Origin: Anadara kagoshimensis
Lineage: Eukaryota; Mollusca; Bivalvia; Arcoida; Arcidae
DNA: 64,000 nt
Direction of reading: 5' to 3'
Assembly: GCA_021292105.1 (NCBI GenBank)
Contig: CM037869.1
Location: 4,683,001-4,747,000 of the forward strand
How positions within the stretch are numbered: the first letter of the stretch is position 1; each line of letters opens with the position of its first letter. Below the pieces are notes generated by a model. That model did not search any database and was not told the origin of the DNA. It worked only from the letters and a program-made list of their open reading frames with translations. Shown in pieces: positions 21,640 to 55,922 of this stretch. Position numbers and translations under genes: made by a program.

Positions 21640-21800
21640 TTGTTTTACAATCAACTAAATTATAAATAGTCTGACCTGTCTGCGACACAAGCGATCCAAT
21701 TTGCAAATCAGGAAGAACAGAAAACGCAAAGCTGTACATTACCTTGATCAAAAATTGATCTGTATATATATAATCAAACCTAAAAGCCATAAGCAAATAT

Positions 21801-22024: not shown

Positions 22025-22110
22025 GCACATAAGAAAATTAAATATTTAATTGACAAGTTTATTCAATATTGACATCACGTAAATAAGACTTGATTTCATA
22101 TTATTTACAG

Positions 22111-22312
22111 TACAGACCTGTCGAAAGTTTAACACTGTGCTTACGGATGTGAGTCGAAGCTCGGATACTGAAATATGCATGTATAGCTTGTCGCCAAAAA
22201 ACCGTCGCAAGATAGAAAACTACTTTTGGAATGTTGGTAACCTGGGACCAAGATGAGACACAAATCCGCATTAATCCGTTAGCTTAGTGTTAAACTTTTG
22301 ACAGTTCTGTAC
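22111..22312. mobile_element. CAGACCTGTC-family MITE, short copy 2
   Basis: Left TACAGACCTGTCGAAAGTTT, interior GAGTCGAAGCTCGGATAC and GGGACCAAGATGAGACAC, right GTTAGCTTAGTGTTAAACTT then TTGACAGTTCTGTA. About 202 bp with TA edges. It interrupts a sequence that continues uninterrupted in the diverged copy at about 32.3 kb, which acts as an empty site. Confidence 0.82.
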
Positions 22313-23145
22313 ATCATAAACAACATTGTTTAAGAACAGCCCAAAAAAGCTACATTGCAACTAAAATACTTATTTATCAAAAACATTAAACAAAGTTGAG
22401 ACCAGGTCAGGGAAGGATATGCATAGATTGATAATTCGTGCTAACATTTAAAATTACAAAGGTATCGGTTATTTCCTACTAGTTATACCCCCGTTTATTG
22501 GGTATGCATGTATAGGTGTTTGTCTGTCTGTCTGTCTATATGTCCGTCCCAATATCGCGTGCCCGCTCCATATCTTCCATGTCTATAGATGCGTTTTGAT
22601 TAAACTTAGTACAAAAGTCAACCAACACGAGACATGTGTCGCATATAAAATTTAGATCCTTCGGTCAATATTCATAACCTAATGATAAAATCTCATTCAG
22701 CTTTATCGATAATTCTATTTTAATATTACAATCTCTTTTATGAAAATGGGATAACAGGTTATTGTTTAAATTCTATTTCAAAACGATTTTTTTATCACAT
22801 TGTTGTTGTTAATCCAATGGTTGTCGGGTTTTTCCCACTCTTACTAGGAAATTAATTAATTTAAATTCAACAGAAGAGCTTCAGTAACATTTGTCAATGT
22901 TTGTCCAATTTTATCTGATATCGGTATAAAATACATTTAGAGAATCATTAGTTGACTTCGACATGGACAGGCGTTGTCCGCACTATGTTCGGCTATTTAA
23001 TACAATAGAATATCATTCAATGATAAGTTACGGCGTGGTGATGTGTAACACCAAAGTATTGAGTTTATGTATGGACAATTTACAAAAAAATATGTTAAGA
23101 AAAGGTTAAAATATAAAAAAATCATTTGAATTAAGTTGCTGTTTG
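22313..23145. repeat. Left flank of the 23-kb array, duplicated on its right
   Basis: Blocks here recur in the same order in 32,300-32,930: ACTTATTTATCAAA, ATTTCCTA, GGGAAAT-type AT blocks, CATTTGTCAATG against AATTTGTCAATC, and GGATTAAGTTGCT against GAATTAAGTTGCT just before the array. By eye the identity is moderate, so the duplication is old. A (TCTG)n run lies at 22,522-22,538. Confidence 0.55.
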
Positions 23146-29100: not shown

Positions 29101-31945
29101 AGAGACAGATAGCTGCTGTCAAAGATACAGCTAACAATGGCGCCGAGAGACAGCTGCTGTCAAAGATACAGCTAACGATGGGGCCGAGAGACAGATAGCT
29201 GCTGTCAAAGATACAGCTAACGATATGGCCGAGAGAGAGATAGCTGCTGTCAAAGATACAGCTAACGATGGGGCCGTAAGACAGATAGCTGCTGTCAAAG
29301 ATACAGCTAACGATGGGGCCGAGAGACAGATAGCTGCTGTCAAAGATACAGCTAACGAGGGATCGAGAGACAGATAGCTGCTGTCAAAGATACAGCTAAC
29401 GATGGGCCGAGAGACAGATAGCTGCTGTCAAAGATACAGCTAACGATGGTGCCGAGAGACAGATAGCTGCTGTAAAAGATACAGCTAACAATGGGGCCGA
29501 GAGACAGATAGCTGCTGTCAAAGATACAGCTAACGATGGGACCGTGAGACAGATAGCTGCTGTCAAAGATACAGCTAACGATGGTGCCGAGAGACAGATA
29601 GCTGCTGTAAAAGATACAGCTAACAATGGGGCCGAGAGACAGATAGCTGCTGTCAAAGATACAGCTAACGATGGGACCGTGAGACAGATAGCTGCTGTCA
29701 AAGATACAGCTAACGATGGTGCCGAGAGACAGATAGCTGCTGTAAAAGATACAGCTAACAATGGGGCCGAGAGACAGATAGCTGCTGTAAAAGATACAGC
29801 TAACAATGGGGCCGAGAGACAGATATCTGCTGTCAAAGATACAGCTAACGATGGGACCGTGAGACAGATAGCTGCTGTCAAAAATACAGCTAACGATGGG
29901 CCGAGAGACAAATACCTGCTGTCAAAGATACAGCTAACGATGGGGTCGAGAGACAGATACCTGCTGTCAAAGATACAGCTAACGAGGGGCCGAGAGATAG
30001 ATAGCTGCTGTCAAAGATATGGCTAACGAGGGGCCGAGAGATAGATACCTGCTGTCAAAGATATGGCTAACGATGGGACCGAGAGACAGATAGCTGCTGT
30101 CAAAGATATGGCTAACGAGGGGCCGAGAGACAGATAGCTGCTGTCAAAGATACAGCTAACGATAGGGCCGAGAGACAGATAGCTGCTGTCAAAGATATGG
30201 CTAACGAGGGGCCGAGAGACAGATAGCTGCTGTCAAAGATACAGCTAACGATGATGCCGAGAGACAGATAGCTGCTGTCAAAGATATGGCTAACGAGGGG
30301 GCGAGAGACAGATAGCTGCTGTCAAAGATATGGCTAACGAGGGGCCGAGAGACAGATAGCTGCTGTCAAAGATATTGCTAACGAGGGGTCGAGAGACAGC
30401 TGCTGTCAAAGATACAGCTAACGATAGGGCCAAGAGACAGATAGCTGCTGTCAAAGATACAGCTAACGAGGGGCCGAGAGACAGATAGCTGCTGTCAAAG
30501 ATATGGCTAACGATAGGGCCGAGAGACAGATAGCTGCTGAAAAAGATACAGCTAACGAGGGGCCGAGAGACAGATAGCTGCTGTCAAAGATATGGCTAAC
30601 GAGGGGCCGAGAGACAGATAGCTGCTGTCAAAGATACAGCTAACGAGGGGCCGAGAGATAGATAGCTGCTGTCAAAGATATGGCTAACGAGGGGCCGAAA
30701 AACAGATAGCTGCTGTCAAAGATACAGCTAACGATGGGGCCGAGAGACAGATAGCTGCTGTCAAAGATACAGCTAACAAAGGGACCGAGAGACAGATAGC
30801 TGCTGTCAAAGATACAGCTAACAATGGGACCGAGAGACAGATACCTGCTGTCAAAGATACAGCTAACGATAGGGCCGAGAGACAGATAGCTGCTGTCAAA
30901 GATACAGCTAACGAGGGGCCGAGAGATAGATAGCTGCTGTCAAAGATACAGCTAACGATGGGGCCGAGAGACAGATAGCTGCTGTCAAAGATACAGCTAA
31001 CGATGGGGCCGAGAGACAGATAGCTGCTGTCAAAGATACAGCTAACGATGGGACCGAGAGACAGATAGCTGCTGTCAAAGATACAGCTAACGATAGGGCC
31101 GAGAGACAGATAGCTGCTGTCAAAGATACAGCTAACGAGGGCCGAGAGATAGATAGCTGCTGTCAAAGATATGGCTAACGAGGGGCCGAGAGACAGATAG
31201 CTGCTGTCAAAGATACAGCTAACGAGGGGCCGAGAGATAGATAGCTGCTGTCAAAGATATGGCTAACGAGGGGCCGAGAGATAGATAGCTGCTGTCAAAG
31301 ATACAGCTAACGAGGGGCCGAGAGACAGATAGCTGCTGTCAAAGATACAGCTAACGAGGGGCCGAGAGACAGATAGCTGCTGCCAAAGATACAGCTAACG
31401 ATGGAGCCGAAAGACAGATAGCTGCTGTCAAAGATACAGCTAACGAGGGGCCGAGAGACAGATAGCTGCTGTCAAAGATACAGCTAACGATGGGGCCGAG
31501 AGACAGATAGCTGCTGTCAAAGATATGGCTAACGAGGGGCCGAGAGACAGATAGCTGCTGTCAAAGATACAGCTAACGAGGGGCCGAGAGACAGATAGCT
31601 GCTGTCAAAGATACAGCTAACGATAGGGCCGAGAGACAGATAGCTGTTGTCAAAGATACAGCTAACGAGGGGCCGAGAGACAGATAGCTGCTGTCAAAGA
31701 TATGGCTAACGAGGGGTCGAGAGACAGATAGCTGCTGTCAAAGATACAGCTAACGACGGGCCGAGAGACAGATAGCTGCTGTCAAAGATACAGCTAACGA
31801 TGGGGCCGAGAGACAGATAGCTGCTGTCAAAGATACAGCTAACGAGGGGCCGAGAGACAGATAGCTGCTGTCAAAGATACAGGTAACGACGGGCTGAGAG
31901 ACAGATAGCTGCTGTCAAATATACAGCTAACGAGGGACCGAGATG
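23146..31945. repeat. 8.8-kb satellite, 44/45-bp unit
   Basis: About 198 units of the form GCCGAGAGACAGATAGCTGC, TGTCAAAGATACAGCTAACG, ATGGG (45 bp) or AGGG variants (44 bp), with ATATGG alternating with ATACAG. The last unit runs into GGGACCGAGATGAGCTG, the subterminal sequence of the CAGACCTGTC MITE family. A block of about 2,978 bp is present twice (about 23,620-26,600 and 26,600-29,600). No terminal inverted repeats were found at its edges. Open frames on both strands follow from the 45-bp period and are not genes. Confidence 0.93.
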
Positions 31946-32984
31946 AGCTGACCATACGGTGCCAATTTGTTGTCTTAGTGTCCAAATCTCGATAGGCGTA
32001 TACTGTAAAGCATCTGGTTCTGATTCTGGTCAATCAAACTTTTTTCATAGCTTACCTTTTAATAATCTCTCTTTAAAAATGATTCAGTCTAGAGTAAGAC
32101 AGTAAAAATAAAGAGTAAAACAGTACAACTGTCCAATGTGTGAACTTGTTTGAAAGGAATGTTATAATTTTATATATTCAATGTTATGAAAGCACGGCTT
32201 CTGAGATCGTTTCGTTTGTATTTTCAAATTATGGTGTCAACATTCGCCTCGTCTAATATCTTAAAGCACGTAAGAAAAGTAAATCTTATAATTGATAAGT
32301 CGACTAGCTATTGACAACAAATAAACACGGCTTGATTTCAAACACGATTTATAGAAGTTATAATTTAATGTCCTTATCATAAACAAGTCTATTTGAGAAA
32401 ATCACAGATAAGCAACTTTACAAAATAAAACACTTATTTATCAAACAAAATTTACAATGGTTAAAACTGTATCAGACACAGGGTATGTTTCGAGTGCTTA
32501 TTCGTGTTGGTATTTAAAATTTCAAAAATTACATTATTTCCTATTGATTTTAAAGAAATTGTACTGCAATCTATTTACTTTTTTTAAAAGTATATAACCG
32601 AATACTTGTCTGTTACGGTGACAGAGAGGTTTAGTGGTTTATTCGTTTATCTAAAGGTTCTCCATTTTTCAGTTTTGCTTATCTAAGCGGGAAATGAATT
32701 AAATATAATTTACCAAATTTTTGTGTTTACATAAATTTGTCAATCAGTGCCCAATTTAAGTGGAAATAAGTTTCAAATATGACAACTCCGTGGATAAACG
32801 TTGTCCTAACTCCACTTACAGTAAATTCTAAACAGTTTTAAACTCAATGCAATGACCTGCAAAATTTATAGAAAAATGTATTTTAAAAAAAACCTATAAA
32901 TCATATTTGGATTAAGTTGCTTTTTTATTCAAACTAATTCCAAACCATTCACTCTTACATATACCAACGAAAGGCTACCTTTGA
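31946..32984. repeat. Right flank of the 23-kb array, copy of the left flank
   Basis: From about 32,300 this aligns by eye to 22,050-23,145, ending TTGGATTAAGTTGCT where the left copy enters the array. It lacks the MITE at 22,111-22,312 (TTGATTTCAAACACG runs on to ATCATAAACAAG). Confidence 0.5.
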
Positions 32985-34605: not shown

Positions 34606-35338
34606 ACACTCAGTTCAATAGTCAATTGTTTGTCATTAGTTGTAAAATTAAGCGGGCTTTTTAAAACAATCAAGTTACAATATTACTTTAACAAAACTAC
34701 TGGAAACTGTTGGCCAATATGTGTCAGGTGTTCACTCAAATGGGTTTATAAGTTTTCTCGTTTTCATAAGTGTTGTTAGTGTATGCTATGCAGTTCTACT
34801 ACATTACTGTCGGCATTTCTTGGTATATTAACATGTTATATACGATGTAAAATTAGAAGCTGTGATGTAGTTACAATGCTGTTTAACGTCGCATAAGCAA
34901 TTTATTTTACACAGCAAGTACACCGAAGACAAACATACCATTCCTCACAACACATTATAGTGACAACGGGTGAACAAGTCCATACTTTCTTTTCTAAATA
35001 CCGAGCGTCAGTCGAGGAAGCAATATCTCAAATATTAAAGTGTTATGGATTTGAACCCACGACGTCCAGTTCTCGAGGCGGAAACTTTTCCATTCAGCGA
35101 TCCTGGTGGTCGAAGCCAAAGCTTACATTTGTAGCATTTGTAGCAATTTTAGTACAAACTGCGAAGAACAAAAACACAATCAGACACACTAAACAAGTTT
35201 ATTATAAGTCTATAAAACAAAATAAATACAAAGTTTTGATCCAAAATATACATTACAAAAAAAGTTTTGATCTCTGCGAACTTAACAATTAACAAAAACG
35301 ATCGTGTGTCATTCTCACTGCACTTCATACACCATACG
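34606..35338. other. AT-rich stretch with a possible SINE head
   Basis: At about 34,965-35,110 the minus strand holds GTCGTGGGTTCAAATCC, a B-box-like block, and may be a decayed tRNA-derived SINE. Otherwise nothing is recognised. Confidence 0.25.
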
Positions 35339-35339
35339 G

Positions 35340-35532
35340 TACAGACCTGTCAAAAGTTTAACACTGAGTCAACGAAATAGTCGAAACTCGGATTCCTAGT
35401 GGCCGAGTCATTGATAGTTAGTGGCAAAAAAACCAGTACGGAAAACTATCCAGGTGGAGCTAACGAGGATGGGCTGCCGATTTGACACTAAAACGTTAGC
35501 TTAATAAGTGTTAATCTTTCAACAGGCCTATA
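35340..35532. mobile_element. CAGACCTGTC-family MITE, short copy 3
   Basis: Left TACAGACCTGTCAAAAGTTT, then GTCGAAACTCGG, GTGGCCGAGTC, GATAGTTAGTGGC, AGCTAACGAGGATGGGCTGC, then AACGTTAGCTTAATAAGTG and CTTTCAACAGGCCTATA. It shows the full internal order of the family in about 190 bp. Confidence 0.82.
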
Positions 35533-35945
35533 CTGTGAGCAATTTGTTGTAGGTTGTATTTTAATACGACAAATTTTTATACTTCCATATATTTCATGAA
35601 CAATATAATTTTTAATTCATGAAACCAATCAATCTGACCACAAATCAAATGAGATTTGTCTCCCTTTGACACCAGAGAAACAATCAAAGGGAGGGAACCA
35701 GTACTAGACATACGTAGTTCCTGCTAATAATCTTTTTAACGAAAGAAAGGCAATCGTGAAAAAAATTGGCAAACTCAATATTTATGCAGATGTTACAGCC
35801 AATTCACGACAAACCCCGGCTAAGCTCGAAACCATGACTATGACACTATATACTTGTAAATACATAAAAATCAAGCTCCAGTTATCTACGACCAGTAAGA
35901 AAAATACCATCGCATTCCAACTGGTGACACCGGGTTTTGCGAGAG

Positions 35946-37658
35946 TACAGGCCTGTCGAAAGTTAAACACTAGCTCAACAAATAAATCGTCAGCTTATCT
36001 TGGTTCCTCGTTAGCTATATCTTATCAAAAGCTGTTATATATCTCTAGGTAGGTTTTCAGTTACTAGCTAGTCATATATCGACAGTCGAGCTCCCACTGC
36101 TAGTCATATATCGACAGTCGAGCTCCCACTGCTATTAATATATAGACATTCGAGCTCCCACTTCTATTCATATATCGACAGTCGAGCTCCCACTGCTATT
36201 CATATATCGACAGTCGAGCTCCCACTGTTATTCATATATCGACAGTCGAGCTCCCACTGTTATTCATATATCGACAGTCGAGCTCCCACTGTTATTCATA
36301 TATCGACAGTCGAGCTCCCACTGCTATTCATATATCGGCAGTCGAGCTCCCACTGCTGTTCATATATAGGCAGTCGAGCTCCCACTGCTATTCATATATC
36401 GACAGTCGAACTCCACTGCTATTCATATATCGACAGTCGAGCTCTCACTGCTATTCATATATAGGCAGTCGACCCACTGCTATTCATATATCGACAGTCG
36501 AGCTCCCACTGCTATTCATATATCGACAGTCGAGCTCCACTGCTATTCATATATCGACAGTCGAGCTCCCACTGCTATTCATATATCGACAGTCGAGCTC
36601 CCACTGCTATTCATATATCGACAGTCGAGCTCCCACTGCTATTCATATATCGACAGTCGAGCTCCCACTCCTATTCATATATCGAGTCGAGCTCCCACTG
36701 TTATTCATATATCGACAGTCGAGCTCCCACTGCTATTCATATATCGGCAGTCGAGCTCCCACTGCTATTCATATATAGGCAGTCGAGCTCCCATTGCTAT
36801 TCATATATCGACAGTCGAACTCCACTGCTATTCATATATCGACAGTCGAGCTCTCACTGCTATTCATATATAGGCAGTCGACCCACTGCTATTCATATAT
36901 CGACAGTCGAGCTCCCACTGCTATTCATATATCGACAGTCGAGCTCCCACTGCTATTCATATATCGGCAGTCGAGCTCCCACTGCTATTCATATATAGGC
37001 AGTCGAGCTCCCACTGCTATTCATATATCGACAGTCGAGCTCCCACTGTTATTCATATATCGACAGTCGAGCTCCCACTGCTATTCATATATCGGCAGTC
37101 GAGCTCCCACTGCTATTCATATAGGCAGTCGAGCTCCCACTGCTATTCATATATCGACAGTCGAACTCCCACTGCTATTCATATATCGACAGTCGAGCTC
37201 TCACTGCTATTCATATATAGGCAGTCGACCCACTGCTATTCATATATCGACAGTCGAGCTCCAACTGCTATTCAATATCGACAGTCGAGCTCCCACTGCT
37301 ATTCATATATCGACAGTCGAGCTCCCACTGCTATTCATATATCGACAGTCGAGCTCCCACTGCTATTCATATATCGACAGTCGAGCTCTCATTGCTATTC
37401 ATATATCGACAGTCGAGCTCTCATTGCTATTCATATATAGACAGTCGAGCTCCCACTGCTATTCATATATCGACAGTCGAGCTCCCACTGCTATTCATAT
37501 ATAGACAGTCGAGCTCCCACTGCTATTCATATATAGACAGTCGAGCTCCCACTGTTATTCATATATCGACAGTCGAGCTCCCACTGCTATTCATATATCG
37601 ACAGTCGAGCTCCCACTGCTATTTGTTAGCTTAGTGTTAAAGTTTTGACATGTCTGTA
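35946..37658. mobile_element. CAGACCTGTC-family MITE carrying the 32-bp array
   Basis: Left TACAGGCCTGTCGAAAGTTA with CACTAGCTCAACAAATAA. Right GTTAGCTTAGTGTTAAAGTT then TTGACATGTCTGTA. Between them, after a short stretch of family sequence (TCGTTAGCTATATCTTATC), is the 32-bp array. The element is about 1.7 kb instead of 0.2 kb, because its interior is a satellite. Confidence 0.82.
36062..37622. repeat. 1.56-kb satellite, 32-bp unit
   Basis: About 48 units of CTATTCATATATCGACAGTC followed by GAGCTCCCACTG. Common variants are TATAGGCAGTC, TATCGGCAGTC and a shortened AGTCGACCCACTG. The unit matches the reverse complement of the left interior of short family members (GAGTCGAAGCTCGG to CGAGATATGGATAGCTAGTG). 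A 32-bp period gives an open frame that repeats every three units and is not a gene. Confidence 0.92.
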
Positions 37659-38209
37659 CTGTAGAGTAACTTTAGACAGGTTGTCTTCCTAGCAACCGAC
37701 TGTAAAACAAAATATTATCTACAGTGATTAGAATAAAACTACCCCAGTATATTAGATAGCCTTCTATCTTAAAAGAAAACTAATGATTACATCAGAAAGT
37801 CCAACACTGAGACATAAACTGGATTCCGTATATATATGTATATGAAAGTAAAACCAATATATTCTTCTAACGATTTCTCACCGGGTCAAATAAGATAATA
37901 ATTATTATATTTTTACATTTTTAACTTTTTTTGTTCTATAAAGCTCATTTGCATACCAAAGGTATGCATATGGATCATGTGACGTCATTTATTGGCTGTT
38001 CCAGCAACTGGATATGCATGTCGTAGGTAGAAATGTTTTATATTTTCGTCAAATTTAAGGAAACTGTGAAATGTAAATATTGTTCGCGTTATTCAGTTTC
38101 CTCTGTACGGCAATGGAAGTTAACGCATTATGTTTTACAGCTCAATGGATACGTATTTATAAGATCGAAAGACAACCTTCACCAATTTATTTCAAACCCA
38201 GATATACCA
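37659..38209. other. Stretch with no recognised feature
   Basis: No exon or repeat family is recognised. Confidence 0.3.
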
Positions 38210-38460: not shown

Positions 38461-39183
38461 GTATTACAACTGAAGTTGGCTTTTATTACAGTTCCTTTAT
38501 ACCAATGGCAATAATCAATATGTGTCTTAATAAAAACACTTCAAGTTGATCAATTGCCCTTAAAGGGCGATATAGTTCATGAGTATTTAAAAAAGTACAC
38601 ACTTTGACCCACAAAAAAGTTGCATGTCAACTAAATTGTATTACAGTTTGATGTCAATACCGTATGTCGGAAATTTTTTGCATACTAATACATTAATATC
38701 ACACAAATCGTCATTTCGATATATTTGCGTGGTTTTATTTTTTCTCGTCGTCCAATTATGGTCAAAGTAAATGTAGGTGAATTACGTGATTATGTATATC
38801 AAAATAAAATATTCGCCGTTTTTATTTTCCCTTGTTGTTACTCACGCCAAAAAATAAAACGAACGCGAAATTTTCCTGCCGATTTACAGTACAGTATATA
38901 GATATCGAGGTATGAAGATGACTTTACGACTCGAAATCTTTGCATAAATCGAACAATAAACCATATACAAGCTTGTACATCTAATTTTTCATTCCTTGTA
39001 GCTGAAGTCGACATTGCCAACTAATTTCGGAGAAATACTTTCAAGAAAGTAACCCTATTTATGAAATTTGTGAATTTCTGAAACATACCTTTTAAAGAGA
39101 TATATTTTGTTTTTACAAATTTTAGAAACGTTTGCTACTAATGATTTCAACTTTTATTAGAGACGTCAGTAATTCTTTTAAAG
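38461..39183. other. AT-rich 3' flank of gene B
   Basis: Only short open frames. GTCGTCCAATTATGGTCAAA and ACGCCAAAAAATAAAACG resemble sequence near 14.5 kb and may be a dispersed repeat. Confidence 0.25.
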
Positions 39184-39385
39184 TACAGACCTGTCAAAAG
39201 TTTAACACTAAGCTGACGAATAAGTGCCAAATAGTCAGCTCATCTTGGCCTCTATCTCGTCAGCCTATCAGCTGCTATCTATCTCTTGGCACTTTATTAC
39301 ACTAGCTATCCATATCTCGACCACTTGACATCCGAACTGTGACTCTATTTCGTCAGCTCTGCGTTAAACCTCCGACAGGTCTGTA
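39184..39385. mobile_element. CAGACCTGTC-family MITE, short copy 4
   Basis: Left TACAGACCTGTCAAAAGTTT, interior CTAGCTATCCATATCTCGAC, right GTTAAACCTCCGACAGGTCT then GTA. It lies 41 bases past the gene B stop codon and contains a minus-strand AATAAA (39,293-39,298). Confidence 0.82.
39293..39298 (-). promoter_or_regulatory. Possible gene B polyadenylation signal inside a MITE
   Basis: AATAAA on the minus strand, 128 bases past the gene B stop. It is the only AATAAA I saw close to the stop and it lies inside the MITE. Confidence 0.35.
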
Positions 39386-39425
39386 CTACACTTTTGGCAC
39401 TATTTCCAATCACACGAAATCCTTC

Positions 39426-40970: not shown

Positions 40971-41001
40971 CTAAAAAGTAATATAGGTTATATTACTATA
41001 G

Positions 41002-44000
41002 TACAGACCTGTCGTAAGTACCACACTGAATTAACGAAAATGATCGGCTAACGGATGACCGATATGTGGAGAGTTAGTGGCAAGATAGCCGTATAGATAT
41101 GGATAGCAGCTACCGAATAGCTGCCGATATGTAGCTAATGAGGGACTAAGGATAATCTGCCAATATGTAGCTAACGAGGGACCAAGAATAAGCTGCCAAC
41201 ATGTAGCTAACGAGGGACCAAGGATAAACTGCAGATATGTAGCTAACGAGAGACCAAGGATAGGCTGCCAATATGTAGCTAACGAGGGACCTAGGATAAG
41301 CTGCCAATATGTAGCTAACGACGGACCAAGGATAAGCTGCCGATATGTAGCTAACGAGGGACCAAGAATAAGCTGCCGATATGTAACTAACGAGGGACCA
41401 AGGATAAGCTGCCGATATGTAGCTAACGAGGGACCAAGAATAATCTGTCAATATGTAGCTAATGAGGGACCAAGGATAAGCTGCCAATATGTAGCTAACG
41501 AGGGACCAAGGAAAAGCTGCCAATATGTAGCTAACGAGGGACCAAGGATAAGCTGCCAATATGTAGCTAACGAGGGACCAAGGATAAGCTGCCAATATGT
41601 AGCTAACGAGGGACCAAGGATAAGCTGCCAATATGTAGCTAACGAGGGACCAAGAATAAGCTGTCAATATTTAGCTAACGAGGGACCAAGGATAAGCTGC
41701 CAATATGTAGCTAACGAGGGACCAAGGATAAGCTGCAGATATGTAGCTAACGACAGACCAAGGATAAGCTGTCAATATGTAGCTAACGACGGACCAAGGA
41801 TAAGCTGTCAATATGTAGCTAACGAGGGACCAAGGATAAGCTGTCAATATGTAGCTAACGAGGGACCAAGGATAAGCTGTCAATATGTAGCTAACGAGGG
41901 ACCAAGGATAAGCTGTCAATATGTAGCTAACGACGGACCAAGGATAAGCTGTCAATATGTAGCTAACGAGGACCAAGGATAAGCTGCATATGTAGCTAAC
42001 GAGGACCAAGGATAAGCTGTCAATATGTAGCTAACGAGGGACCAAGGATAAGCTGCGATATGTAGCTAACGAGGGACCAAGGATAAGCTGCCAATATGTT
42101 GCTAACGAGGGACCAAGGATAAGCTGCCGATATGTAGCTAACGAGGGACCAAGGATAAGCTGCTGATATGTAGCTAACGAGGACCAAGGATAGCTGCCGA
42201 TATGTAGCTAACGAGGGACCAAGGATAAGCTGCCGATATGTAGCTAACGAGGACCAAGGATAAGCTGCTGATATGTAGCTAACGAGAGACCAAGGATAAG
42301 CTGTCAATATGTAGCTAACGAGGGACCAAGGATAAGCTGCAATATGTAGCAACGAGGACCAAGGATAAGCTGCTGATATGTAGCTAACGACGGACCAAGG
42401 ATAAGCTGTCAATATGTAGCTAACGAGGGACAAGGATAAGCTGTCATATGTAGCTAACGAGGGACCAAGATAAGCTGCAGATATGTAGCTAACGAGGACC
42501 AAGGATAAGCTGCCATATGTAGCTAACGAGGGACCAAGGATAAGCTGCCGATATGTAGCTAACGAGAGACCAAGGATAAGCTGTCAATATGTAGCTAACG
42601 AGGGACCAAGGATAAGCTGCCGATATGTAGCTAACGAGGGACCAAGGATAAGCTGCTATATGTAGCTAACGAGGACAAGGATAAGCTGCGATATGTAGCT
42701 AACGAGACCAAGGATAAGCTGCCGATATGTAGCTAACAGGGACCAAGGATAAGCTGTCAATATGTAGCTAACGAGGGACCAAGGATAAGCTGTCAATATG
42801 TAGCTAACGAGGGACCAAGGATAAGCTGTCAATATGTAGCTAACGAGGGACCAAGGATAAGCTGTCATATGTAGCTAACGAGACCAAGGATAAGCTGTCA
42901 TATGTAGCTAACGAGGGACCAAGGATAAGCTGTCGATATGTAGCTAACGAGGGACCAAGGATAAGCTGCCGATATGTAGCTAACGAGGGACCAAGGATAA
43001 GCTGCTAATATGTAGCTAACGAGGGACCAAGGATAAGCTGCTGATATGTAGCTAACGAGAGACCAAGGATAAGCTCCTAATATGTAGCTAACAAGGGACC
43101 AAGGATAAGCTGTCAATATGTAGCTAACGAGGGACCAAGGATAAGCTGTCAATATGTAGCTAACGAGGGACCAAGGATAAGCTGTCAATATGTAGCTAAC
43201 GAGGGACCAAGGATAAGCTGTCAATATGTAGCTAACGAGGGACCAAGGATAAGCTGTCAATATGTAGCTAACGAGGGACCAAGGATAAGCTGTCGATATG
43301 TAGCTAACGAGGCACCAAGGATAAGCTGCTGATATGTAGCTAACGAGGACCAAGGATAAGCTGTCAATATGTAGCTAACGAGGACCAAGGATAAGCTGTC
43401 GATATGTAGCTAACGAAGACCAAGGATAAGCTGTCATATGTAGCTAACGAGGGACCAAGGATAAGCTGCGATATGTAGCTAACGAGAGACCAAGGATAAG
43501 CTGTCAATATGTAGCTAACGAGAGACCAAGGATAAGCTGCTGATATGTAGCTAACGAGGGACCAAGGATAAGCTGTCATATGTAGCTAACGAGGACCAAG
43601 GATAAGCTGTCAATATGTAGCTAACGAAGACCAAGGATAAGCTGCTGATATGTAGCTAACGAGGGACCAAGGATAAGCTGTCATATGTAGCTAACGAGAG
43701 ACCAAGGATAAGCTGTCATATGTAGCTAACAAGACCAAGGATAAGCTGTCATATGTAGCTAACGAGAGACCAAGGATAAGCTGCTGATATGTAGCTAACG
43801 AGGGACCAAGGATAAGCTGTCCAATATGTAGCTAACGAGGACCAAGGATAAGCTGCAGATATGTAGCTAACGAGGACCAAGGATAAGCTGCCAATATGTA
43901 GCTAACGAGGGACCAAGGATAAGCTGCGATATGTAGCTAACGAGGACCAAGGATAAGCTGCCAATATGTAGCTAACGAGAGACCAAGGATAAGCTGTCGA

Positions 44001-47000
44001 TATGTAGCTAACGAGGGACCAAGATAAGCTGCAGATATGTAGCTAACGAGGACCAAGGATAAGCTGCCAATATGTAGCTAACGAGGGACCAAGGATAAGC
44101 TGCCGATATGTAGCTAACGAGAGATCAAGGATAAGCTGTCGATATGTAGCTAACGAGGGACCAAGGATAAGCTGCTGATATGTAGCTAACGAGAGACCAA
44201 GGATAAGCTGTCGATATGTAGCTAACGAGAGACCAAGGATAAGCTGTCTATATGTAGCTAACGAGGGACCAAGGATAAGCTGCCATATGTAGCTAACAAG
44301 GACCAAGGATAAGCTGCTAATATGTAGCTAACAAGGGACCAAGGATAAGCTGTCGATATGTAGCTAACGAGAGACCAAGGATAAGCTGCCGATATGTAGC
44401 TAACAAGGGACCAAGAATAAGCTGCAATATGTAGCTAACGAGGACCAAGGATAAGCTGCCAATATGTAGCTAACGAGGGACCAAGGATAAGCTGCCGATA
44501 TGTAGCTAACGAGAGACCAAGGATAAGCTGTCGATATGTAGCTAACGAGGGACCAAGAATAAGCTGCAGATATGTAGCTAACGAGGGACCAAGGATAAGC
44601 TGCCAATATGTAGCTAACGAGGGACCAAGGATAAGCTGCCGATATGTAGCTAACGAGAGATCAAGGATAAGCTGTCGATATGTAGCTAACGAGGACCAAG
44701 GATAAGCTGCCGATATGTAGCTAACGAGAGACCAAGGATAAGCTGTCGATATGTAGCTAACGAGAGACCAAGGATAAGCTGCTAATATGTAGCTAACGAG
44801 GACCAAGGATAAGCTGCCGATATGTAGCTAACAAGGGACCAAGGATAAGCTGCTGATATGTAGCTAACAAGAGACCAAGGATAAGCTGTCGATATGTAGC
44901 TAACGAGGGACCAAGGATAAGCTGCGATATGTAGCTAACAAGGGACCAAGGATAAGCTGCTGATATGTAGCTAACAAGAGACCAAGGATAAGCTGCTGAT
45001 ATGTAGCTAACGAGGGACCAAGGATAAGCTGTCATATGTAGCTAACGAGAGACCAAGGATAAGCTGTCAATATGTAGCTAACGAGAGACCAAGGATAAGC
45101 TGCTGATATGTAGCTAACGAGGGACCAAGGATAAGCTGTCATATGTAGCTAACAAGGGACCAAGGATAAGCTGTCGATATGTAGCTAACAAGGGACCAAG
45201 GATAAGCTGTCGATATGTAGCTAACAAGGGACCAAGGATAAGCTGCTAATATGTAGCTAACGAGGAACCAAGGATAAGCTGCTAATATGTAGCTAACAAG
45301 AGACCAAGGATAAGCTGTCAATATGTAGCTAACAAGAGACCAAGGATAAGCTGTCAATATGTAGCTAACAAGGGACCAAGGATAAGCTGTCGATATGTAG
45401 CTAACAAGGGACCAAGGATAAGCTGCTGATATGTAGCTAACAAGAGACCAAGGATAAGCTGTCGATATGTAGCTAACGAGGGACCAAGGATAAGCTGCTA
45501 ATATGTAGCTAACAAGAGACCAAGGATAAGCTGTCAATATGTAGCTAACAAGAGACCAAGGATAAGCTGTCGATATGTAGCTAACGAGGGACCAAGGATA
45601 AGCTGCTAATATGTAGCTAACAAGAGACCAAGGATAAGCTGTCGATATGTAGCTAACGAGGGACCAAGGATAAGCTGCTAATATCTAGCTAACGACGGAC
45701 CAAGGATAAGCTGTCAATATGTAGCTAACGAGGGACCAAGGATAAGCTGCTGATATGTAGCTAACGAGAGACCAAGGATAAGCTGTCGATATGTAGCTAA
45801 CGAGAGACCAAGGATAAGCTGTCGATATGTAGCTAACAAGGGACCAAGGATAAGCTGTCGATATGTAGCTAACAAGGGACCAAGGATAAGCTGCCGATAT
45901 GTAGCTAACGAGAGACCAAGGATAAGCTGTCGATATGTAGCTAACGAGGGACCAAGGATAAGCTGTCGATATGTAGCTAACGAGAGACCAAGGATAAGCT
46001 GTCGATATGTAGCTAACAAGGGACCAAGGATAAGCTGTCGATATGTAGCTAACAAGGGACCAAGGATAAGCTGCCGATATGTAGCTAACGAGAGACCAAG
46101 GAAAAGCTGTCGATATGTAGCTAACGAGGGACCAAGGATAAGCTGTCGATATGTAGCTAACGAGGGACCAAGGATAAGCTGCTGATATGTAGCTAACGAG
46201 AGACCAAGGATAAGCTGCCAATATGTAGCTAACGAGGGACCAAGGATAAGCTGCAGATATGTAGCTAACGAGAGACCAAGGATAAGCTGCCGATATGTAG
46301 CTCACGAGAGACCAAGGATAAGCTGTCGATATGTAGCTAACGAGAGACCAAGGATAAGCTGTCAATATGTAGCTAACGAGAGACCAAGGATAAGCTGCTA
46401 ATATGTAGCTAACAAGGGACCAAGGATAAGCTGCTAATATGTAGCTAACAAGGGACCAAGGATAAGCTGCCAATATGAAGCTAACGACAGACCAAGGATA
46501 AGCTGCCGATATGTAGCTAACGAGAGACCAAGGATAAGCTGTCGATATGTAGCTAACGAGGAACCAAGGATAAGCTGCTAATATGTAGCTAACAAGGGAC
46601 CAAGGATAAGCTGCCAATATGTAGCTAACGACGGACCAAGGATAAGCTGCTAATATGTAGCTAACGAGGAACCAAGGATAAGCTGCTAATATGTAGCTAA
46701 CAAGGGACCAAGGATAAGCTGCCAATATGTAGCTAACGAGGAACCAAGGATAAGCTGCTAATATGTAGCTAACGAGGAACCAAGGATAAGCTGCTAATAT
46801 GTAGCTAATAAGGGACCAAGGATAAGCTGCCAATATGTAGCTAACGACGGACCAAGGATAAGCTGCTAATATGTAGCTAACAAGGAACCAAGGATAAGCT
46901 GCTAATATGTAGCTAACAAGGGACCAAGGATAAGCTGCCAATATGTAGCTAACGACAGACCAAGGATAAGCTGCCAATATGTAGCTAACGACGGACCAAG

Positions 47001-50000
47001 GATAAGCTGCTAATATGTAGCTAACGAGGAACCAAGGATAAGCTGCTAATATGTAGCTAACAAGGGACCAAGGATAAGCTGCCAATATGTAGCTAACGAC
47101 GGACCAAGGATAAGCTGCTAATATGTAGCTAACGAGGAACCAAGGATAAGCTGCTAATATGTAGCTAACAAGGGACCAAGGATAAGCTGCCAATATGTAG
47201 CTAACGACAGACCAAGGATAAGCTGCCGATATGTAGCTAACGAGAGACCAAGGATAAGCTGTCGATATGTAGCTAACGAGGAACCAAGGATAAGCTGCTA
47301 ATATGTAGCTAACAAGGGACCAAGGATAAGCTGTCGATATGTAGCTAACGAGGAACCAAGGATAAGCTGCTAATATGTAGCTAACAAGGGACCAAGGATA
47401 AGCTGCCAATATGTAGCTAACGAGAGACCAAGGATAAGCTGCTGATATGTAGCTAACGACGGACCAAGGATAAGCTGTCAATATGTAGCTAACGACGGAC
47501 CAAGGATAAACTGCAGATATGTAGCTAACGAGAGACCAAGGATAGGCTGCCAATATGTAGCTAACGAGGGACCTAGGATAAGCTGCCAATATGTAGCTAA
47601 CGAGGGACCAAGGATAAGCTGCCGATATGTAGCTAACGAGAGACCAAGGATAAGCTGTCGATATGTAGCTAACGAGGAACCAAGGATAAGCTGCTAATAT
47701 GTAGCTAACAAGGGACCAAGGATAAGCTGTCGATATGTAGCTAACGAGGAACCAAGGATAAGCTGCTAATATGTAGCTAACAAGGGACCAAGGATAAGCT
47801 GCCAATATGTAGCTAACGAGAGACCAAGGATAAGCTGCTGATATGTAGCTAACGACGGACCAAGGATAAGCTGTCAATATGTAGCTAACGACGGACCAAG
47901 GATAAACTGCAGATATGTAGCTAACGAGAGACCAAGGATAGGCTGCCAATATGTAGCTAACGAGGGACCTAGGATAAGCTGCCAATATGTAGCTAACGAC
48001 GGACCAAGGATAAGCTGCCGATATGTAGCTAACGAGGGACCAAGAATAAGCTGCCGATATGTAACTAACCAGGGACCAAGGATAAGCTGCCGATATGTAG
48101 CTAACGAGGGACCAAGAATAATCTGTCAATATGTAGCTAATGAGGGACCAAGGATAAGCTGCCAATATGTAGCTAACGAGGGACCAAGGAAAAGCTGCCA
48201 ATATGTAGCTAACGAGGGACCAAGGATAAGCTGCCAATATGTAGCTAACGAGGGACCAAGGATAAGCTGCCAATATGTAGCTAACGAGGGACCAAGGATA
48301 AGCTGCCAATATGTAGCTAACGAGGGACCAAGAATAAGCTGTGAATATTTAGCTAACGAGGGACCAAGGATAAGCTGCCAATATGTAGCTAACGAGGGAC
48401 CAAGGATAAGCTGCAGATATGTAGCTAACGACAGACCAAGGATAAGCTGTCAATATGTAGCTAACGACGGACCAAGGATAAGCTGTCAATATGTAGCTAA
48501 CGAGGGACCAAGGATAAGCTGTCGATATGTAGCTAACGAGAGACCAAGGATAAGCTGTCGATATGTAGCTAACAAGGGACCAAGGATAAGCTGCTAATAT
48601 GTAGCTAACGAGGGACCAAGGATAAGCTGCTGATATGTAGCTAACGAGAGACCAAGGATAAGCTGTCAATATGTAGCTAACGAGGGACCAAGGATAAGCT
48701 GTCAATATGTAGCTAACGAGGGACCAAGGATAAGCTGTCGATATGTAGCTAACGAGGGACCCAGGATAAGCTGCTGATATGTAGCTAACGAGAGACCAAG
48801 GATAAGCTGTCAATATGTAGCTAACGACGGACCAAGGATAAGCTGCCGATATGTAGCTAACGAGAGACCAAGGATAAGCTGTCAATATGTAGCTAACGAG
48901 AGACCAAGGATAAGCTGCCGATATGTAGCTAACGAGAGACCAAGGATAAGCTGTCAATATGTAGCTAACGAGAGACCAAGGATAAGCTGCTGATATGTAG
49001 CTAACGAGAGACCAAGGATAAGCTGTCAATATGTAGCTAACGAGAGACCAAGGATAAGCTGTCAATATGTAGCTAACGAGAGACCAAGGATAAGCTGCTG
49101 ATATGTAGCTAACGAGGGACCAAGGATAAGCTGTCAATATGTAGCTAACGAGAGACCAAGGATAAGCTGTCAATATGTAGCTAACGAGAGACCAAGGATA
49201 AGCTGTCAATATGTAGCTAACGAGAGACCAAGGATAAGCTGCTGATATGTATAACTACGAGGGACCAAGGATAAGCTGTCAATATGTAGCTAACGAGGAC
49301 CAAGGATAAGCTGCAGATATGTAGCTAACGAGGACCAAGGATAAGCTGCCAATATGTAGCTAACGAGGGACCAAGGATAAGCTGCAGATATGTAGCTAAC
49401 GAGGACCAAGGATAAGCTGCCAATATGTAGCTAACGAGAGACCAAGGATAAGCTGTCGATATGTAGCTAACGAGGGACCAAGAATAAGCTGCAGATATGT
49501 AGCTAACGAGGACCAAGGATAAGCTGCCAATATGTAGCTAACGAGGGACCAAGGATAAGCTGCCGATATGTAGCTAACGAGAGATCAAGGATAAGCTGTC
49601 GATATGTAGCTAACGAGGGACCAAGGATAAGCTGCCGATATGTAGCTAACGAGAGACCAAGGATAAGCTGTCGATATGTAGCTAACGAGAGACCAAGGAT
49701 AAGCTGCTAATATGTAGCTAACGAGGGACCAAGGATAAGCTGCCGATATGTAGCTAACAAGGGACCAAGGATAAGCTGCTGATATGTAGCTAACAAGAGA
49801 CCAAGGATAAGCTGTCGATATGTAGCTAACGAGAGACCAAGGATAAGCTGCCGATATGTAGCTAACAAGGGACCAAGAATAAGCTGCAGATATGTAGCTA
49901 ACGAGGACCAAGGATAAGCTGCCAATATGTAGCTAACGAGGGACCAAGGATAAGCTGCCGATATGTAGCTAACGAGAGACCAAGGATAAGCTGTCGATAT

Positions 50001-53000
50001 GTAGCTAACGAGGGACCAAGAATAAGCTGCAGATATGTAGCTAACGAGGACCAAGGATAAGCTGCCAATATGTAGCTAACGAGGGACCAAGGATAAGCTG
50101 CCGATATGTAGCTAACGAGAGATCAAGGATAAGCTGTCGATATGTAGCTAACGAGGGACCAAGGATAAGCTGCCGATATGTAGCTAACGAGAGACCAAGG
50201 ATAAGCTGTCGATATGTAGCTAACGAGAGACCAAGGATAAGCTGCTAATATGTAGCTAACGAGGGACCAAGGATAAGCTGCCGATATGTAGCTAACAAGG
50301 GACCAAGGATAAGCTGCTGATATGTAGCTAACAAGAGACCAAGGATAAGCTGTCGATATGTAGCTAACGAGGGACCAAGGATAAGCTGCCGATATGTAGC
50401 TAACAAGGGACCAAGGATAAGCTGCTGATATGTAGCTAACAAGAGACCAAGGATAAGCTGCTGATATGTAGCTAACGAGGGACCAAGGATAAGCTGTCAA
50501 TATGTAGCTAACGAGAGACCAAGGATAAGCTGTCAATATGTAGCTAACGAGAGACCAAGGATAAGCTGCTGATATGTAGCTAACGAGGGACCAAGGATAA
50601 GCTGTCAATATGTAGCTAACAAGGGACCAAGGATAAGCTGTCGATATGTAGCTAACAAGGGACCAAGGATAAGCTGTCGATATGTAGCTAACAAGGGACC
50701 AAGGATAAGCTGTCGATATGTAGCTAACAAGGGACCAAGGATAAGCTGTCGATATGTAGCTAACAAGGGACCAAGGATAAGCTGTCGATATGTAGCTAAC
50801 AAGGACCAAGGATAAGCTGTCGATATGTAACTAACAAGGGACCAAGGATAAGCTGTCGATATGTAGCTAACAAGAGACCAAGGATAAGCTGTCGATATGT
50901 AGCTAACGAGAGACCAAGGATAAGCTGCTGATATGTAGCTAACGAGGGACCAAGGATAAGCTGTCAATATGTAGCTAACAAGGACCAAGGATAAGCTGTC
51001 GATATGTAGCTAACAAGGGACCAAGGATAAGCTGCTGATATGTAGCTAACAAGAGACCAAGGATAAGCTGTCGATATGTAGCTAACGAGGGACCAAGGAT
51101 AAGCTGCTAATATGTAGCTAACAAGAGACCAAGATAAGCTGTCAATATGTAGCTAACAAGAGACCAAGGATAAGCTGTCGATATGTAGCTAACGAGGGAC
51201 CAAGGATAAGCTGCTAATATGTAGCTAACAAGAGACCAAGGATAAGCTGTCGATATGTAGCTAACGAGGGACCAAGGATAAGCTGCTAATATCTAGCTAA
51301 CGACGGACCAAGGATAAGCTGTCAATATGTAGCTAACGAGGGACCAAGGATAAGCTGCTGATATGTAGCTAACGAGAGACCAAGGATAAGCTGTCGATAT
51401 GTAGCTAACGAGAGACCAAGGATAAGCTGTCGATATGTAGCTAACAAGGGACCAAGGATAAGCTGTCGATATGTAGCTAACAAGGGACCAAGGATAAGCT
51501 GCCGATATGTAGCTAACGAGAGACCAAGGATAAGCTGTCGATATGTAGCTAACGAGGGACCAAGGATAAGCTGTCGATATGTAGCTAACGAGAGACCAAG
51601 GATAAGCTGTCGATATGTAGCTAACAAGGGACCAAGGATAAGCTGTCGATATGTAGCTAACAGGGACCAAGGATAAGCTGCCGATATGTAGCTAACGAGA
51701 GACCAAGGATAAGCTGTCGATATGTAGCTAACGAGGGACCAAGGATAAGCTGTCGATATGTAGCTAACGAGGGACCAAGGATAAGCTGCTGATATGTAGC
51801 TAACGAGAGACCAAGGATAAGCTGCCAATATGTAGCTAACGAGGGACCAAGGATAAGCTGCAGATATGTAGCTAACGAGAGACCAAGGATAAGCTGCCGA
51901 TATGTAGCTAACGAGAGACCAAGGATAAGCTGTCGATATGTAGCTAACGAGAGACCAAGGATAAGCTGTCAATATGTAGCTAACGAGAGACCAAGGATAA
52001 GCTGCTAATATGTAGCTAACAAGGGACCAAGGATAAGCTGCTAATATGTAGCTAACAAGGGACCAAGGATAAGCTGCCAATATGAAGCTAACGACAGACC
52101 AAGGATAAGCTGCCGATATGTAGCTAACGAGAGACCAAGGATAAGCTGTCGATATGTAGCTAACGAGGAACCAAGGATAAGCTGCTAATATGTAGCTAAC
52201 AAGGGACCAAGGATAAGCTGCCAATATGTAGCTAACGACGGACCAAGGATAGCTGCTAATATGTAGCTAACGAGGAACCAAGGATAAGCTGCTAATATGT
52301 AGCTAACAAGGGACCAAGGATAAGCTGCCAATATGTAGCTAACGAGGAACCAAGGATAAGCTGCTAATATGTAGCTAACGAGGAACCAAGGATAAGCTGC
52401 TAATATGTAGCTAATAAGGGACCAAGGATAAGCTGCCAATATGTAGCTAACGACGGACCAAGGATAAGCTGCTAATATGTAGCTAACAAGGAACCAAGGA
52501 TAAGCTGCTAATATGTAGCTAACAAGGGACCAAGGATAAGCTGCCAATATGTAGCTAACGACAGACCAAGGATAAGCTGCCAATATGTAGCTAACGACGG
52601 ACCAAGGATAAGCTGCTAATATGTAGCTAACGAGGAACCAAGGATAAGCTGCTAATATGTAGCTAACAAGGGACCAAGGATAAGCTGCCAATATGTAGCT
52701 AACGACGGACCAAGGATAAGCTGCTAATATGTAGCTAACGAGGAAACCAAGGATAAGCTGCTAATATGTAGCTAACAAGGACCAAGGATAAGCTGCCAAT
52801 ATGTAGCTACGACAGACCAAGGATAAGCTGCCGATATGTAGCTAACGAGAGACCAAGGATAAGCGTCGATATGTAGCTAACGAGAACCAAGGATAAGCCT
52901 GCTAATATGTAGCTAACAAGGGACCAAGGATAAGCTGTCGATATGTAGCTAACGAGGAACCAAGGATAAGCTGCTAATATGTAGCTAACAAGGGACCAAG

Positions 53001-54633
53001 GATAAGCTGCAATATGTAGCTAACGAAGACCAAGGATAAGCTGCTGATATTAGCTAACGACGGACCAAGGATAAGCTGTCAATATGTAGCTAACGAGGGA
53101 CCAAGATAAGCTGTCAATATGTAGCTAACGAGGGACCAAGGATAAGCTGTCAATATGTAGCAACGAGGGACCAAGGATAAGCTGCCGATATGTAGCTAAC
53201 GAGGACCAAGGATAAGCTGTCAATATGTAGCTAACGAGGGACCAAGAATAAGCGCAGATATTGTAGCTAACGAGGACCAAGGATAAGCTGCCAATATGTA
53301 GCTAACGAGGGACCAAGGATAAGCTGCCGATATGTAGCTAACGAGAGATCAAGGATAAGCTGTCGATATGTAGCTAACGAGGGACCAAGGATAAGCTGCG
53401 ATATGTAGCTAACGAGGGACCAAGGATAAGCTGTCGATATGTAGCTAACGAGGGACCAAGGATAAGCTAATATGTAGCTAACAAGGGACCAAGGGATAAG
53501 CTGTCAATATGTAGCTAACGAGGGACCAAGGATAAGCTGTCGATATGTAGCTAACGAGAGACCAAGGATAAGCTGTCAATATGTAGCTAACAAGGGACCA
53601 AGGATAAGCTGTCAATATGTAGCTAACAAGGGACCAAGAATAAGCTGTCAATATGTAGCTAACAAGGGACCAAGGATAAGCTGTCGATATGTAGCTAACA
53701 AGGGACCAAGGATAAGCTGCCGATATGTAGCTAACGAGGGACCAAGGATAAGCTGCTAATATGTAGCTAACGAGAGACCAAGGATAAGCTGTCGATATGT
53801 AGCTAACAAGGGACCAAGGATAAGCTGCCGATATGTAGCTAACAAGGGACCAAGGATAAGCTGTCGATATGTAGCTAACAAGGGACCAAGGATAAGCTGT
53901 CGATATGTAGCTAACGAGAGACCAAGGATAAGCTGTCGATATGTAGCTAACAAGGGACCAAGGATAAGCTGTCAATATGTAGCTAACAAGGACCAAGGAA
54001 GCTGTCGATATGTAGCTAACGAGGGACCAAGGATAAGCTGACTAATATGTAGCTAACAAGGGACCAAGGATAAGCTGCCGATATGTAGCTAACGAGAGAC
54101 CAAGGATAAGCTGTCGATATGTAGCTAACAAGGGACCAAGGATAAGCTGCCTAATATGTAGCTAACAAGGGACCAAGGATAAGCTGTCGATATGAAGCTA
54201 ACGAGGGACCAAGGATAAGCTGCCAATATGTAGCTAACGAGGGACCAAGGATAAGCTGCCGATATGTAGCTAACGAGAGACCAAGGATAAGCTGTCGATA
54301 TGTAGCTAACGAGGGACCAAGGATAAGCTGCCAATATGTAGCTAACAAGGACCAAGGATAAGCTGCTAATATGTAGCTAACGAGGGACCAAGGATAAGCT
54401 GTCGATATGTAGCTAACGAGAGACCAAGGATAAGCTGTCAATATGTAGCTAACGAGGGACCAAGGATAAGCTGTCAATATGTAGCTAACGAGGGACCAAG
54501 GATAAGCTGCTAATATGTAGCTAACGAGAGATCAAGGATACGCTACAGATATATAGCTAACGAGAGACCAAGGATAAGCTGCCGATTTGACAATAATTCG
54601 TTAGCTTAGTGGTAAACTTTTGACAGATCTGTA
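41002..54633. mobile_element. CAGACCTGTC-family MITE expanded to 13.6 kb
   Basis: Left edge TACAGACCTGTCGTAAGTAC, then family interior (GAATTAACGAAAATGATCGG, AGTTAGTGGCAAGATAGCC). Right edge GATTTGACAATAATTCGTTA, GCTTAGTGGTAAACTTTTGA, CAGATCTGTA. Everything between 41,121 and 54,586 is the 36-bp array. Both ends are typical of the 200-bp copies, so the element is one family member whose interior has grown about 70-fold. It lies entirely in gene B intron 1. Confidence 0.85.
41121..54586. repeat. 13.5-kb satellite, 36-bp unit
   Basis: About 370 units of CGATATGTAGCTAACGAG, GGACCAAGGATAAGCTGC. Variable sites include CC/TC/CT before GATATG or AATATG, CGAGGG/CGAGAG/CAAGGG/CGACGG/CGAGGA, and the rare marker AGATCAAGG at about 44,112, 44,651, 49,571, 50,111, 53,341 and 54,531. 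Marker spacing shows a 540-bp subrepeat and a duplication of about 5.46 kb. The 36-bp period keeps a minus-strand frame open for up to 874 codons (45,685-48,309), a 12-residue repeat that I reject as a protein. Confidence 0.95.
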
Positions 54634-55284
54634 CTGTACATAAAATATTTAAATTTAATGTAAACTTTAACTATAAATTTTTTTTTTACATTAAAACATG
54701 TTATTACAATTTTTAAATTCGTTTATTGCAGAAAGAGAGTAACATCCAGGTATGAAAATGTATACGCTTTTAATTTTAATTCTGGAAACTTGAATACATG
54801 CATAAATACATGTAGGTTAGACACGGAAGTACAATTTATTTAAATTTGATTTTTTGAACAGGATCCGGTTATTCAAAGCTTGTTAGTTTCACGGAATCCA
54901 GTTTTCATTTTTTTATATTATTTAAAGAGACGACCATTTTCAAAAGCTTTCCTCTATAACACCATAACATCAATATTTTTTTATTCATGTAATTTTAAAT
55001 ATGCACCCCCATTGCAAGGCCTAACAATGGGGTCATTTGGTAAAATAAGGGATCATTGGCCCCATGCCCCCTTCTAAAATAAGAATGAACACTGCAATTT
55101 ATTATAGACATACAACTATGACTTAAATAAATCAATTATATTTGATAACGTCATTTGTAAACATCAACTTTTCACATTATAAAATATATGTATCTAAAAA
55201 TGTTGTCCACTACAAAAGATTCAAGTTTTTTGTTGACCACCTGATTGATACAAAATGCTTTTTATTGTGTCTTGTCTAATTATA
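54634..55284. other. AT-rich part of gene B intron 1
   Basis: No exon or repeat family is recognised. Confidence 0.35.
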
Positions 55285-55375: not shown

Positions 55376-55578
55376 ATATTTAGTGGAATACTAAGTGTCA
55401 ATTAATGTTGATCGTGATTTATATATACAAGTAATTATGCTTTCATTTTCAATTTAAAAAAAACTTTTAAAAAGCGATTTATTTACAGCGGTTAATAGAG
55501 CAGTTCAAACATATTTTTACTAAATAATTTATTTCGCCTGAATAAACTAAGGAATGCCACTGAAAGATATCTATACAG

Positions 55579-55794
55579 TACAGACCTGTCGAAACTTTAA
55601 AACTGGGCTAAAAAGAGTCAAAGCCGAGTGGCCGAGATATGGATAGCCAGTGGCCAAAACGTTGTCGAAAGATAGATGGTAGCTATACTAGCTACCAGAA
55701 GAGCTACAGACATATAGGTAACGCGGAGTCAAAATGAGCTGCTAAATCTTTACTTATTAGGTTAGGTCAGTATTGAACTTCTCACAGGTCTGTA
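55579..55794. mobile_element. CAGACCTGTC-family MITE, short copy 5
   Basis: Left TACAGACCTGTCGAAACTTT, interior GAGTCAAAGCCGAGTGGCCG, AGATATGGATAGCCAGTGGC, GATAGATGGTAGCTATAC, then ACTTCTCACAGGTCTGTA. About 216 bp. It shows both the segment amplified at 36 kb and the one amplified at 23 and 41 kb. Confidence 0.83.
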
Positions 55795-55922
55795 CTGTAT
55801 ATAGAATTTTTTTTATTTATTTATACGTGTTAGTCATTAAATCAAATGAATAGAGTGAGGCTCTATATGATTGGAATATCTGCAATATTATGTAACCGGT
55901 AACAGTGTGAACAGGTGAATGC

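Follow-up and report, generated by a model that had tools for sequence, protein, structure and literature searches.

The 64,000-bp stretch of the Anadara kagoshimensis genome analyzed here (the window, C13:4683001-4747000, from an assembly of 1.1 Gb in 36 contigs) contains a miniature inverted-repeat transposable element (MITE) of 13,638 bp in which both terminal inverted repeats (TIRs) are retained around an array of a 36-bp unit, and it is very probable that a Tc1/mariner-type MITE inserted here at a TA and then multiplied an internal segment in place. The initial annotation, which had proposed MITE ends around some 370 copies of the unit, is borne out: the TIRs align, and Tandem Repeats Finder reports a single array at 41119-54586 with a period of 36, 376.3 copies, and 91% matches. 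The whole element, with its ends read from the sequence, occupies 40999-54636, and the proposed check for a TA target-site duplication also came out positive, as TA is found directly outside both ends, at 40997-40998 on the left and 54637-54638 on the right. Between these lie the left TIR with its subterminal sequence (40999-41038, forward strand) and a single-copy left half of the MITE interior (41039-41118, forward strand), both placed by alignment to the consensus of solo copies of the family, the array itself (forward strand, supported by Tandem Repeats Finder, consensus alignment, and block search), and the right subterminal sequence and right TIR (54587-54636, reverse strand, from the sequence and consensus alignment). 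Apart from two gaps, of 8 bases and 1 base, the left flank together with the first unit aligns to positions 1-169 of the solo consensus; positions 148-223 are matched by the right flank. At up to 2 mismatches, the window contains 20 matches to the TIR core, TACAGACCTGTC, whereas 100 shuffles gave 4.6 on average and 9 at most. Array and element lengths are assembly values throughout.

A second copy of the locus allows the same insertions to be compared in two states. A search with the right end of the element returned a 99% match, flank included, at C13:3494387, and 40 kb around this partner locus are collinear with the window in the same orientation, about 1.24 Mb away. Substitutions between the two amount to 3.46% over 17,511 aligned bases (0.9-10.3% by block), summed over 11 of 16 blocks; the five excluded were two that aligned poorly (73% and 83% identity), two of short length, and one free of mismatches. 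At the same insertion, the 36-bp element is 13,638 bp long in the window but 4,493 bp long in the partner, while a 45-bp array is 8.8 versus 1.7 kb and a 32-bp array is 1,557 versus 678 bp. The insertion at 35337-35535 (forward strand, by locus comparison) is a short, array-less copy in the window but holds 51 copies of a 22-bp unit in the partner; the remaining four short copies lie within locus blocks that have small gaps only. The left flank and left edge of the 36-bp array are common to both loci over 1,941 bp with 18 mismatches, beyond which the arrays diverge, and when the arrays are split into units, the first 13 are identical. Since insertions shared by the two loci differ in their arrays, the arrays have changed size in place, inside the element.

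In the second locus copy, the assembly has probably retained the other haplotype, although a true tandem duplication is a possible alternative. With a 1.6-kb flank query, the full-length matches were the window and the partner, and the rest of the 40 scored candidates were a dispersed repeat of less than 200 bp. The pairing extends well beyond the locus (C13:4691000/3450908 at 90%, C13:4850001/3600173 at 94%, and C13:4200001/5384543 at 95%, with a spacing of about 1.2 Mb), forming a megabase-scale collinear direct repeat with long matches that are 90-99% identical. The comparison of arrays is valid for either a haplotype or a duplication, and it is allelic only if the copy is a haplotype. C5:66752976 and C5:67887515 may be a similar locus pair.

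The repeat units can be traced to the interior of the MITE. The 223-bp solo consensus was built from 29 copies picked at 195-230 bp from similarity matches and the two locus copies (with L004 excluded; three of the 29 are partner-locus counterparts of window copies). The 36-bp unit aligns to consensus positions 128-176 with a score of 56, compared with a maximum of 25 in 300 shuffles, in agreement with the earlier derivation of this unit from the interior, while the 45-bp unit aligns with gaps to positions 101-161 (score 49, shuffle maximum 24) and that of 22 bp from the paired locus to positions 64-92 (score 41, shuffle maximum 21). Positions 128-176 correspond to about 1.36 36-bp units, and since the alignments of both the 36- and 22-bp units extend past one unit, the solo MITE already contains the beginning of a second. 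Within the consensus interior, 27 overlapping 9-bp windows recur with at least 8 matches at distances of 18-61 bp (mean 1.3 and maximum 10 in 1,000 shuffles), and we read this as the trace of an ancestral interior that may have been rich in short direct repeats and has decayed since. Taken together, the unit homology, the TIRs, the TA, and the same insertion at 4.5 kb in the paired locus sustain the proposal that the satellite was born inside the transposon.

The series of events would begin with the insertion of a MITE copy of about 220 bp at a TA site. Its ancestral interior would have carried short direct repeats about 21-46 bp apart, copying between two of these would have produced the first dimer, and the dimer would have been extended to a long array through unequal exchange between sister or homologous arrays or through block copying between them; the loss of an end would then leave an array that appears free-standing. 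As for function, the array most likely does nothing for the host and arose as a neutral by-product. Blocks repeated within the arrays were recovered by an exact-seed search (a search with BLAST settings gave one match only). In the 36-bp array, the block at 45525-47139 (forward strand) is repeated at 51133-52745, a shift of about 5,607 bp, with 2 mismatches over about 1,615 bp in three adjoining stretches, and a block from the left edge at 41119-41970 (forward strand) is repeated at 47797-48648 with 24 mismatches in 852; smaller shifts, of 15 and 11 units, are also present. In the 45-bp array, 23631-26873 is repeated at a shift of about 2,977 bp (67 units), with 0 mismatches in stretches of 499, 1,239, and 312 bp and 14 in 1,063 bp further on, and a related array on C16 contains a repeat shifted by 87 units with 0 mismatches in 1,548 and 396 bp. 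Blocks of several sizes and ages fit repeated unequal exchange or block copying. Slippage driven by hairpins was also considered and rejected, as single-stranded DNA folding revealed no excess structure in three pieces of array, one of which was folded on both strands (z of +1.9, +2.6, -0.4, and +0.8). No clear edge-to-centre gradient of unit divergence was found among the exact 36-bp units on which it was judged (284 of 361 in the window and 101 of 112 in the partner).

Several observations weigh against this account. No empty insertion site was found. The two block pairs of the 36-bp array differ in age, as judged from 2 mismatches in about 1,615 bp and 24 in 852, and because of this, no one event explains the array. 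The 32-bp unit by itself scores at shuffle level (25, against a shuffle maximum of 25), and its element was placed through the flanks, which align to consensus positions 0-60 and 80-222 on either side of the array. Direct repeats are only weakly in excess within single solo copies, and the argument for a seed rests on the consensus because only 4 of the 29 reach p<0.05. Which member of each paired state is ancestral is something that we infer, save that the short form fits the common solo structure, and errors of assembly in array length are possible.

The window element is not the only one of its kind in the genome. When five units were used as queries, at least about 17 further places with long matches came up besides the partner locus (counted at a minimum of about 125 query bases matched; the window's own array was not among the matches listed), and nine of these were examined. 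In each of the nine, a TIR lies no more than 150 bp from the array, with 0-4 mismatches of 24 at seven loci and with 6 at the other two, a level that none of 3,000 random stretches of 300 positions reached. Both TIRs are present in five of the nine. The largest of these elements, C16:42729331-42745040, measures 15,710 bp and consists of 708 copies of a 22-bp unit between TIRs with 0 and 1 mismatches, with TA on both sides and a second exact TIR 51 bp further out on the left. The suggestion in the initial annotation that a complete case of this size would be unusual thus fails within the genome itself. The other four are a 5,510-bp element on C9 (3 and 3 TIR mismatches), a 4,659-bp element on C17 (6 and 3), a 1,667-bp element on C2 (4 and 3), and a 1,064-bp element on C13 (5 and 2). 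Of the arrays with one TIR, three run to the edge of the piece examined and one lacks a second TIR; two-ended and one-ended forms are both present in this genome. The periods among the nine are 22, 30, 34, 35, 36, 37, and 40 bp, while two arrays score best at periods of 71 and 145 bp. Aligned to the MITE consensus, every one of the nine units exceeds shuffles (scores of 39-64, shuffle maxima of 20-28). The 36-bp unit on C18 may share ancestry with that of the window. When the 22-bp array of the partner was used as the query, clustered matches were found on C2, C4, C10, C12, C14, C19, and others. We lean toward the view that one MITE family serves as a recurrent satellite nursery, in which cryptic direct repeats would allow many copies to start locus-specific arrays of differing unit length independently, and a single insertion could acquire an array of tens of units where none existed, or add about 250 units, between two haplotypes.

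Among other explanations, growth could have been driven by transposase, in that aberrant repair of the gaps left by cuts at the TIRs would copy the interior, and several copies do have their array between TIRs. However, arrays with no apparent link to these TIRs differ between the loci too, as at 18193-21639 (3.4 versus 0.45 kb), and another dispersed repeat forms a 40-bp array in the partner but has one copy in the window. The TIRs thus seem unneeded for growth, and we do not consider this explanation likely. That the array lengths are mostly an artefact of assembly, through false expansion and a false duplicate of the locus, is improbable: arrays with different units occur at many loci, the left edges agree between the locus copies, and older blocks have diverged by 1-3%, although the megabase-scale direct collinear copy does look like an uncollapsed haplotype and errors of assembly could account for exact block repeats of about 2 kb. 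Alternatively, the family might have captured existing satellites, or inserted beside them, and then spread them, which is the proposal that one review, in its available text, reports for the miDNA4 element (PMC12628747). This is very unlikely here, as the periods vary by locus (22 to 40 bp) and yet all nine tested units map to the MITE interior, short copies hold about one unit, and array length has changed at fixed insertions. It is scarcely credible that the element transposed to this site with a long array already inside, since the same insertion holds 4.5 kb in the partner and one insertion exists with and without a 22-bp array, even though the related array on C18 also has a 36-bp unit and short arrays may be inherited. 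Multiplication of the MITE interior in place is the reading retained below.

Genome-wide, a 31-base TIR pattern with up to 3 mismatches is matched 28,521 times in forward and 27,801 times in reverse orientation (about 56,000 in 1.1 Gb), with part of the matches held in tandem clusters, compared with 0 for the reversed control. Among 34 TIR pairs at loci found by similarity, 29 have TA on the left, 21 have it on the right, and 16 have it on both sides. The first 44 exact TIR matches, all on C1, comprised 24 in three clusters, which were excluded, and 20 isolated copies, which were taken as a sample; 11 of the 20 are solos of 204-222 bp. The right end is followed by TA in 14 of the 19 sampled copies in which it was found, the left TA being part of the query in this sample. 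A row of tandem repeats lies between the TIRs in five of the 20, two of which were weak (12 and 16 bp) and were not counted; the three counted arrays have periods of 33, 46, and 76 bp, with a TIR contained in the 76-bp unit. TIRs that start with CAGT and a TA duplication form what we take to be the Tc1/mariner pattern. Judged from sequence, the family would be a non-autonomous Tc1/mariner-type MITE, as indicated by its TIRs, the TA, a short solo form without room for a transposase gene, and its high copy number. Arrays with a TIR inside the unit were also observed at C1:44104013-44106347, C13:37773418-37775191, on C4 (L025), and on C7 (L028-L030), with spacings of about 43, 100, 57, 111, and 56 bp, and represent a second array-forming mode in the same family.

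Going by the title, Satovic and Plohl reportedly described MITEs containing tandem repeats in the clam Donax trunculus in 2013, and, by title only, this resembles the present case in that tandem repeats occur in bivalve MITEs. The rise of satellites within MITEs is described by reviews, in their available text, which cite miDNA4 and Xstir of Xenopus (PMC12628747, PMC9659126). Like the family described here, miDNA4 (Scalvenzi and Pollet 2014, via PMC12628747 and PMC9659126) is a Tc1/mariner MITE with an internal satellite, which is present as one monomer or as a variable array; microhomology has been proposed, and decay of the ends leads to free arrays. The likeness, drawn from the description, is limited in that miDNA4 carries one satellite, captured according to one review and MITE-born according to the other, whereas here several unit lengths derive from the MITE's own interior and elements reach 15.7 kb. 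Xstir/Xmix of Xenopus (Hikosaka and Kawahara 2004, via PMC12628747 and PMC9659126), again as described in the available text, also has tandem repeats from a MITE interior and exists in MITE, array, and composite forms, but the mechanism proposed for it is the stem-loop joining of neighbouring elements. The Pearl-type elements of bivalves (CvA/HindIII and BIV160; PMC9659126) are, by the available description, non-autonomous class II elements linked to satellites, as here. In the Tetris foldback element of Drosophila virilis, according to the accessible part of the report, internal repeats likewise expand within the element, two allelic copies have 3 and 4 repeats, and fibre fluorescence in situ hybridization revealed a long array between the element ends (PMC4079207); its 220-bp unit lies within the foldback TIRs, whereas here the unit lies between the TIRs and the two copies differ in length by about 250 units. 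The Cg170/HindIII arrays of oyster, of Helitron type, are described in the available text as including element-borne, one-ended, and free-standing arrays together (PMC11136912), although they belong to another superfamily and have a unit of about 170 bp, going by the name. A minisatellite within a bacterial MITE has also been reported, in the text available (PMC4596501). MITE-borne satellites are thus a known kind, and the present element is a large, well-documented variant. In the literature covered, with most subscription papers outside the search, we met no report of a single MITE family with many unit lengths, complete elements over 10 kb, and a paired locus, and a text search for the TIR letters returned no transposon paper by title.

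The origin of satellites is usually inferred from end products. In this genome, the solo seed, short arrays, two-ended long arrays, and a one-ended array are found side by side, and in the paired locus, the same insertions occur with and without an array or with a longer and a shorter one. The birth rate of arrays, the choice of seed, and the size of growth steps become measurable, and if the nursery interpretation is true, array birth, growth, and end loss would be readable and datable in one genome.

The window contains three arrays of the family (36 bp x 376, 45 bp x 198, and 32 bp x 49). The four short copies listed in the initial annotation at 22.1, 35.3, 39.2, and 55.6 kb are real; besides that at 35337-35535, they were delimited by TIR search to 22108-22314 (forward strand), 39181-39388 (reverse strand), and 55576-55797 (forward strand). 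Not included in that annotation were a fifth short copy at 21800-22025 (forward strand, TIR search) and two array-bearing copies, at 35943-37661 and 23148-32005. The former (reverse strand; Tandem Repeats Finder and TIR search) has both TIRs around the 32-bp array at 36067-37623, with TA past its right edge but GA before its left edge. In the latter, the 45-bp array occupies 23148-31943 (forward strand; Tandem Repeats Finder and consensus alignment) and is borne by a MITE right end at 31944-32005 (reverse strand, from the sequence). No left TIR of this array is recognizable within the window. A possible left-TIR remnant beside the partner-locus 45-bp array was rejected as anything beyond a hint, since its local score of 20 was matched by 25 of 1,000 shuffles, and the best plain TIR match there has 13 mismatches of 24. 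With its right MITE end kept in both locus copies, the 45-bp array looks like the one-ended stage of other families. The sequences flanking it, at 22330-23140 and 32390-32920, appear by eye to be an old direct duplication of each other.

Other arrays were also observed at the paired loci. The different dispersed repeat mentioned above, of about 150 bp, forms its 40-bp array of about 41 copies in the partner at C13:3451850-3453700 (L057), with the single window copy at 9180-9240. The array at 18193-21639, with periods of 35/56/91 bp, corresponds to C13:3474546-3474994 in the partner. Finally, a 21-bp array of 54 copies is located in the partner at C13:3485460-3486590, within a 2.3-kb stretch that has no counterpart near 38.79 kb of the window.

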